Source of the DNA: Bdellovibrio sp. NC01
GTDB lineage: Bacteria > Bdellovibrionota > Bdellovibrionia > Bdellovibrionales > Bdellovibrionaceae
Reading direction: 5' to 3'
DNA: 64,000 bases
Assembly (NCBI RefSeq): GCF_006874625.1
Contig: NZ_CP030034.1
Span: forward strand, 620,001-684,000
The notes below the pieces were generated by a model. It was given only the letters and a program-made list of their open reading frames with translations. It had not been told where the DNA came from and did not search any database. Positions 21,923 through 61,513 of this stretch are shown piece by piece. How positions within the stretch are numbered: the first letter of the stretch is position 1; every line of letters starts with the position of its first letter. A program made the translations under genes and the position numbers.

Positions 21923-22080
21923 GGTCATTTAGGGCAAGGGTCCCTGGTGAGGGCTTTAGCTCTGGGACACGCCATCCAGGCTCTGCCGTCGCCCGCCTTT
22001 GGCGGGTTCGCGCCATCGTGGCGCCGACGGAGGTCCCTGCCGCTAAATCCCTCCCCAGAAACCCTCACCCTAAATGACCC
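21923..22080. repeat. Structured palindromic repeat, copy A
   Basis: Outer arms 21923-21960 and 22042-22080 are a 38-bp inverted repeat with six mismatches, both ending in TTTAGC/GCTAAA on the inside. Within: GGGAC 21964-21968 with GTCCC 22033-22037; CCGTCG 21986-21991 with CGACGG 22025-22030; hairpin CCCGCC-TTT-GGCGGG 21992-22006; hairpin GCGCCA-TCG-TGGCGC 22010-22024. Four of the six arm mismatches become G-U pairs if the minus strand is transcribed. Copy B at 61278 has the same plan. Confidence 0.85.
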
Positions 22081-22349
22081 GCGACTTTCACCTTTCAATC
22101 GTCAGCTTGAAAAGGTGGGATCGAAAATATTTAAAATACGAAACTATGGGTGGTGGAATTTGTAATGGTTGGATTTTTGGAAACTGTTATTTGAATAAAA
22201 GGACGAACTTGTGAAGTTGTGAATGGAGTGAGTGGGGGAACTTCCCATCGCCCTTGGAGGTGGGGGACCTCTTTTTTGTTGGGCGATGGGGAAACCATCG
22301 TTTCTGTTTGTTAGATGGTTTTCCCTGCGGAAACGGTTAGTTCTTTTTT
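22081..22349. other. Intergenic region with nested hairpins
   Basis: No gene seen. CCCATCGCCC 22244-22253 pairs with GGGCGATGGG 22281-22290 and encloses GAGGT-GGGGG-ACCTC (22257-22271) followed by six T. Then AAACCATC 22292-22299 pairs with GATGGTTT 22314-22321. The inner hairpin with its T-run looks like a plus-strand terminator although both neighbours are on the minus strand; the third hairpin lies 29 bases after the end of the metallopeptidase gene and may end its transcript. Confidence 0.55.
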
Positions 22350-61251: not shown

Positions 61252-61513
61252 TTCAGTAGATCGGTAGTAATGCGGGGATTTGCGGGAGAAGTTAATTTAA
61301 CTTTAGCTTCTTCGGCACGCCTTCCTGGCTCGGTCGTGGCCCACGAGCCTTTGGCTCGCGGGTGCGCGCCATCGTGGCGCCCACGAAGGCCTCATGCGCT
61401 AAAGTTAAATTAACTTCTCCCGCAAATTTTGCCTTCGACGGATCTGGTGGAATTTTTTTTCTTTTATTGGTTGGGTGTGTTGGTTTTGTAGCGCTGTTTT
61501 TTTTCAGCGTTTT
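61252..61513. other. Intergenic region between convergent genes, carries repeat B
   Basis: No gene seen. The repeat copy B occupies 61278-61427; the remaining 86 bases to 61513 are AT-rich with T-runs (61450-61518) that could help end transcription from the left. Confidence 0.6.
61278..61427. repeat. Structured palindromic repeat, copy B
   Basis: Outer arms 61278-61307 and 61398-61427 are a perfect 30-bp inverted repeat. Inside: TCGTGG 61334-61339 with CCACGA 61381-61386; hairpin CGAGCC-TTT-GGCTCG 61344-61358; hairpin GCGCCA-TCG-TGGCGC 61366-61380. As in copy A the second hairpin abuts the right strand of the central helix, and the inner ends read TTTAGC and GCTAAA. The arm sequences share nothing with copy A beyond that end. 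Confidence 0.9.

Follow-up and report, generated by a model that had tools for sequence, protein, structure and literature searches.

REP sequences and REPINs are dispersed, intergenic, palindromic repeats that form inverted doublets, with conserved ends around a variable self-pairing stretch, and their proposed active form is folded single-stranded DNA (PMC3116915, PMC6006769). Compensatory changes are known in the variable stretch of REPINs too (PMC3116915). The repeat described here, two copies of which (A and B) lie in the window, i.e., the whole 64,000-nt stretch of DNA that was analysed, has the same dispersed intergenic placement, conserved ends and compensated variable stretch, and its fold may likewise be one of single-stranded DNA. 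A single unit is in itself a long inverted repeat, and every one of the 14 independent close pairs is inverted, as in REPIN doublets. Unlike REPs, the element has a 72-nt conserved three-hairpin tip in a unit of about 150 nt, reaches at most about 30 copies where REPs reach hundreds, lies beside none of the eight RAYT-type loci examined, and occurs in some genomes where no Y1 transposase was detected. As for the REP foot GTAG/GTGG, TCGTAGTGCGGGG is present in some copies of the source genome (e.g., L011, L014 and L015) and absent from most, with no consistent GTAG foot. The element resembles REPINs in style and, by the tests run, is not a member of that group.

TIRYT transposases and their TIRtrons (PMC3733652, PMC6006769) provide a second comparison, as tyrosine-transposase genes of this kind (PF01797, RAYT/TIRYT type) are found in 21 of 24 Bdellovibrio genomes, with up to 12 per genome. 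In contrast to this shared occurrence, the terminal inverted repeats at TIRYT-type loci differ from the element. Five of the eight PF01797 loci examined carry short inverted repeats of their own (AGGTACCTGCTT or GGTGCCTGCC types) that are unrelated to it and TIRtron-like (among L137-L144). None of the eight, including the source genome's own gene at 1181412, has an element within 1.5 kb, the nearest copy to that gene being about 1.8 kb off, and two genomes with elements (G012 with 10 copies and G016 with 6) have no Y1_Tnp match at all. We rejected a RAYT/TIRYT-linked repeat because the genes are present but carry other repeats, with the element not beside them.

Integron attC sites (PMC3053210) are used as a folded single DNA strand, as is proposed for the element, keep their fold while their sequence varies, and have an asymmetry that picks the folding strand. 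Unlike attC sites, the inspected copies have no GTTRRRY/RYYYAAC core and form no cassette array; they are dispersed single sites, and the spacers between paired copies hold no conserved genes. MITEs are short, non-autonomous and intergenic with terminal inverted repeats, as is the element, which differs in having neither a target duplication nor a parent transposon that we could find, and in its inner arms, which are unrelated between copies.

Architecture and distribution of the repeat

The preliminary description of the window had presented A and B as two copies with a shared fold plan. Every helix it named was found in place, and both strands of both copies fold far better than shuffled sequences (z-scores of -8.7 on the plus and -9.8 on the minus strand for copy A, and of -10.3 and -12.5 for copy B); its hairpin count was one short, having missed the third and smallest hairpin of the tip. 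From the outside inward, a long outer stem is followed by a short GGC/GCC helix (in copy A, GAC/GTC), a small hairpin GCC-ATCCN-GGC and a central 6-bp helix, within which lie a variable hairpin 1, a three-base linker and a nearly constant hairpin 2. Hairpin 2 (GCGCCATCGTGGCGC) is exact in both copies (61366-61380 in copy B), while two matches with up to two mismatches arose in only 1 of 100 shuffles. Outside the variable arms, most copies, copy B included, carry conserved motifs, TAGTGCGGGGATTTGC on the left and GCAAATTTTGCCTTCGA on the right; the ends of copy A match these motifs poorly.

Table 1. Positions in the window of copies A and B and of their parts
Feature	Position	Strand	Basis
Copy A, whole	21923-22080	+	Base-by-base confirmation
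Copy A, outer-stem left arm	21923-21960	+	I1 inverted repeat of 38 nt; 84% complementarity with 22042-22079
Copy A, outer-stem right arm	22042-22079	+	Inverted repeat I1
Copy A, conserved core (three-hairpin tip)	21966-22035	+	Match to covariance model at G000:641966-642035 (85 bits, E 8.7e-13)
Copy A, small hairpin 0 (GCC-ATCCA-GGC)	21971-21981	+	Model helix 2
Copy A, central helix CCGTCG/CGACGG, encloses hairpins 1 and 2	21986-21991 with 22025-22030	+	Helix 3
Copy A, hairpin 1 (CCCGCC-TTT-GGCGGG), varies among copies	21992-22006	+	Helix 4
Copy A, hairpin 2 (GCGCCA-TCG-TGGCGC), nearly constant	22010-22024	+	Exact match; helix 5
Copy B, whole	61278-61427	+	Base-by-base confirmation
Copy B, outer left end motif TAGTAATGCGGGG, conserved	61265-61277	+	Common to most copies in genome
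Copy B, left arm	61278-61307	+	Inverted repeat I2, 30 nt, 100% complementary
Copy B, conserved core (three-hairpin tip)	61314-61391	+	Covariance model match G000:681314-681391, 80.9 bits
Copy B, right arm	61398-61427	+	Inverted repeat I2
Copy B, outer right end motif TTTGCCTTCGA, conserved	61428-61438	+	Common to most copies in genome

The repeat had also been set apart from transposons on the ground that its terminal repeats are not shared between copies. This holds for the arms, which are unique to each copy as judged from one arm searched (26 nt of the copy B right arm, unique in the genome at up to three mismatches), and fails for the outer ends, which are conserved in most copies of a repeat whose presence varies between species. 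For that one copy B arm, a guide to another locus was rejected, as the genome has no second match at up to three mismatches. The genes flanking A and B encode a PD40-repeat protein, a protein without a Pfam match and a patatin-like protein. In the gap that separates copy A from the PD40-type gene there is another hairpin with a T run, probably a terminator (22262-22300).

A and B belong to a dispersed repeat family. Further copies with pairing arms, on which the preliminary description had staked its reading beforehand, do exist: hairpin 2 occurs 14 times exactly in the 3.98-Mb genome, a first covariance model of the 72-nt core has 24 matches there, and a refined model, built from 83 aligned matches, has 26, including a subfamily with a different tip. 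In one copy (L070, G000:2549050-2549152), hairpin 2 contains a further, inner hairpin that is about 30 nt long. With the refined model, 22 of the 24 Bdellovibrio genomes carry 3 to 30 copies, the other two having none (G004) and at most one weak match (G003). Of 19 other genera of the family, 2 have copies (4 and 1), and in 23 genomes from the remainder of the order the first model had no match. An exact core match was also found in a Bdellovibrio MAG in a named genome collection. The viral contigs, phages and plasmids searched contained no match to the element, and a phage, plasmid or viral origin was rejected as far as those sequence sets go. No published Bdellovibrio repeat of this kind was found in the open-access literature, subscription journals being outside the scope of that search.

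Maintenance of base pairing

Selection on base pairing had been proposed from the two copies in the window, and with the whole family at hand it is strongly supported, both within the genome and at orthologous sites, that the pairing itself is maintained. Across 82 distinct cores (23 pairs, 1868 cells), 98.4% of the cells are paired. Both partners have changed together in 316 cells, spread over 20 of the 23 pairs (shuffled controls give 79.5, and controls with slid partner columns 4-41), and only 9 changes are one-sided. Broken down by helix, the small hairpin (helix 2) is paired in 99.6% of its cells with double changes at all three pairs, its GCC/GGC being flipped on both sides to GGC/GCC in other copies; the central helix (helix 3) is paired in 98.5% with double changes at five of six pairs; and hairpin 1 (helix 4) has them at all five modelled pairs.

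As a more stringent test, the arms were compared at 46 loci whose orthology was established by flanking sequence, yielding 1849 Watson-Crick arm pairs. At these, 121 pairs have changed on both sides where permutation predicts 27 (none of 2000 permutations exceeding 43), and in 110 of these 121 the new pair is Watson-Crick too. The same site therefore keeps its stem while the sequence of the stem is replaced. One-sided changes number 114, some of them probably alignment noise since the arms were aligned mechanically.

The loop and linker bases of the core are conserved across the genus. One unpaired linker base follows the orientation of a central-helix pair, with TGC accompanying CC in 16 of 17 cases and TTC accompanying CG or CA in 106 of 108. 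This association could reflect a tertiary contact or, alternatively, the spread of two core subfamilies.

Folded DNA versus folded RNA

Covariation is usually taken as proof of a structured RNA, and the helices of an RNA normally change by way of G-U. In the core, G-U makes up 0.7% of the cells and A-C 0.3%. At the 14 columns with transition-type double changes (G-C and A-T, or C-G and T-A), G-U fills 1 and A-C 5 of 1140 cells, as compared to G-U in 5 of 63 pairs in three tRNAs met by chance in the same loci, which is a small control. Arm mismatches were counted in 106 non-orthologous copies. Read on the plus strand of the element, they are pyrimidine-pyrimidine in 176 cases and purine-purine in 16. 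T.C or C.T accounts for 152 of them, mostly in the context 5'-RTC-3' opposite 5'-GCY-3', and such mismatches are therefore G.A on the minus strand. The most stable DNA neighbour stacks for G.A are GA/CG and GG/CA. When the same 106 copies are folded with DNA parameters, the minus strand folds better in 95, by a mean of 4.4 kcal/mol, and with RNA parameters the count of minus versus plus is 66 to 38.

Because the mismatches and the DNA folding energies are biased toward the same strand, the minus strand would be the one whose fold is preserved, and that fold looks like one of single-stranded DNA. The preliminary description had pointed to the minus strand as well, and this part of it stands, for a reason other than the G-U pairs that it gave: the plus-strand mismatches are overwhelmingly C.T and T.C, and the DNA energies favour the minus strand. 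It had offered a folded RNA or a DNA cruciform, and between these, folded DNA is favoured by the sequence patterns and folded RNA disfavoured by the scarcity of G-U and the lack of a consistent gene direction. One-sided changes at orthologous loci (33 G.T and 20 A.C) gave no clear signal, in a direction opposite to that of the arm-mismatch counts, and a plus-strand RNA with G.T mismatches was rejected on those numbers. The strong covariation of this element comes with the marks of folded DNA, and the combination of low core G-U, one-strand mismatch bias and DNA-energy polarity offers a sequence-only way of separating folded DNA from RNA.

Should each copy instead encode a functional structured RNA, either an sRNA or a processed RNA, the extreme folding z-scores would be in keeping with it, but the near absence of G-U from the core would not, and we consider this reading quite improbable. 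Gene context, scored for 152 copies with mechanical ORF calling, is convergent for 65, divergent for 11 and same-direction for the rest of those assigned, 39 copies lying sense and 33 antisense; transcription direction is without preference and promoters are avoided. This inconsistent gene direction argues against an RNA, as does the position of several to many copies directly 3' of an intrinsic terminator. On the same evidence of unbiased orientation in same-direction gaps, a cis-regulatory RNA was rejected. Nor is there an Rfam match in the window at the gathering score, the best sub-threshold matches for five copies being far below it, and a known RNA family was rejected accordingly. A further point in favour of an RNA comes from B. 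bacteriovorus HD100 (G005, in whose coordinates the c-di-GMP-I riboswitch falls inside the published merRNA interval on the matching strand), where one copy (L275, G005:1339161-1339234(+)) falls within the attack-phase sRNA APsRNA6 (1338787-1339441(+), Table 2 of PMC3627812). At least that copy is therefore transcribed, and an RNA role is possible at single copies. Against a general role, no listed copy is overlapped by any of the seven remaining attack-phase sRNAs that have been published.

Placement, inheritance and proposed role

Copies less than about 700 bp apart are convergent in 14 of 14 independent loci, and in more when orthologues are counted. Their spacers, about 90-540 nt in length, have no common sequence except between orthologues and no conserved ORF, and we therefore rejected a cargo carried between paired copies. 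Close species hold many copies at common sites as judged by flanking sequence (24 for G011 and G022, 22 for G001 and G018), and present mobility is therefore low. Ten sites that G011 and G022 do not share were each traced in the genome of the other species. Two proved to be missed orthologues in which hairpin 2 holds a nested insertion; among the others, several have internal deletions that leave arm remnants, and the rest are decayed or rearranged. None of the ten is a precise empty site, and neither a target duplication nor a linked transposase was found for the element. Mobility in the past is instead suggested by its dispersal and by the occurrence of identical cores in unrelated arms.

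Two further readings were considered. One holds the palindromes to be decaying and functionless, their complementarity kept by a mutation bias in which one arm is copied onto the other, either by intrastrand template switching or by mismatch repair acting on an extruded hairpin. The double changes do come in blocks with few single intermediates (9 double and 0 single between G001:C7:53224 and its orthologue), the mismatches that repair recognises best, G.T and A.C, are rare, and copies are lost by deletion. However, pure correction would be strand-symmetric, yet the mismatches are 176 to 16 on one strand and context-dependent, despite copies occurring in both orientations on both chromosome halves. 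The genus-wide conservation of core loop and linker bases also speaks against it. We regard this reading as doubtful. According to the other, the element is a host DNA site, such as a nucleoid, replication or transcription boundary, retained for the cell's own use. Old sites common to close species fit such a site, and so does placement right behind gene ends, the stop codon being a median of 68 nt away from the core where the left gene is directed at the element, although avoidance of promoters explains that placement equally well. A copy number ranging among species from 0 or 1 (G004, G003) to 30 speaks against it, as does the fact that no orthologue of A or B was seen next to the corresponding flanking gene of other species, some of which have an element elsewhere near the PD40-type gene. 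A host site seems improbable to us.

The explanation that we prefer, with our confidence evenly balanced, is that these are non-autonomous intergenic DNA repeats, REPIN- or MITE-like, which are specific to Bdellovibrio and its near relatives and function in the form of folded single-stranded DNA. The element would be exposed or extruded as a single-strand hairpin with a three-hairpin tip, and a strand-specific DNA enzyme or binding protein would recognise the folded minus strand by its tip and its end motifs. The arms would be a sequence-free stem of which only complementarity is kept, and the family would have spread as REPIN- or MITE-like mobile DNA and now be inherited mostly at old sites. 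A more specific version, which we put forward tentatively and think unlikely in its full form, is that the element is the substrate of a strand-specific Bdellovibrio DNA enzyme, new to science, that recognises a tertiary-folded ssDNA cloverleaf, with hypervariable arms that need only be self-complementary and T.C (G.A) mismatches positioned to favour the folding of one strand over the other. The pattern of changes suggests that these DNA-processing or mobile elements form a family that has so far gone unrecognised, which would make this a DNA hairpin system in a predatory genus whose model strain, HD100, carries about 14 copies. If an enzyme acts on the element, it would add to the small group of systems that use folded single-stranded DNA.

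The nested insertion in the two G011/G022 orthologues is a second palindromic element of about 75-80 nt that ends in AAAAATAGCATCCTGCTATTTTTG (L293 and L295 of G011 as compared to G022:2220669 and G022:3470269). A similar hairpin is present in the core of G011:1637129 and also beside L030. At another locus (G011:3547654 as compared to L285 of G022), the element starts at the 3' end of an smpB-like gene in one species, and in the other species it is absent together with the last codons of the gene.
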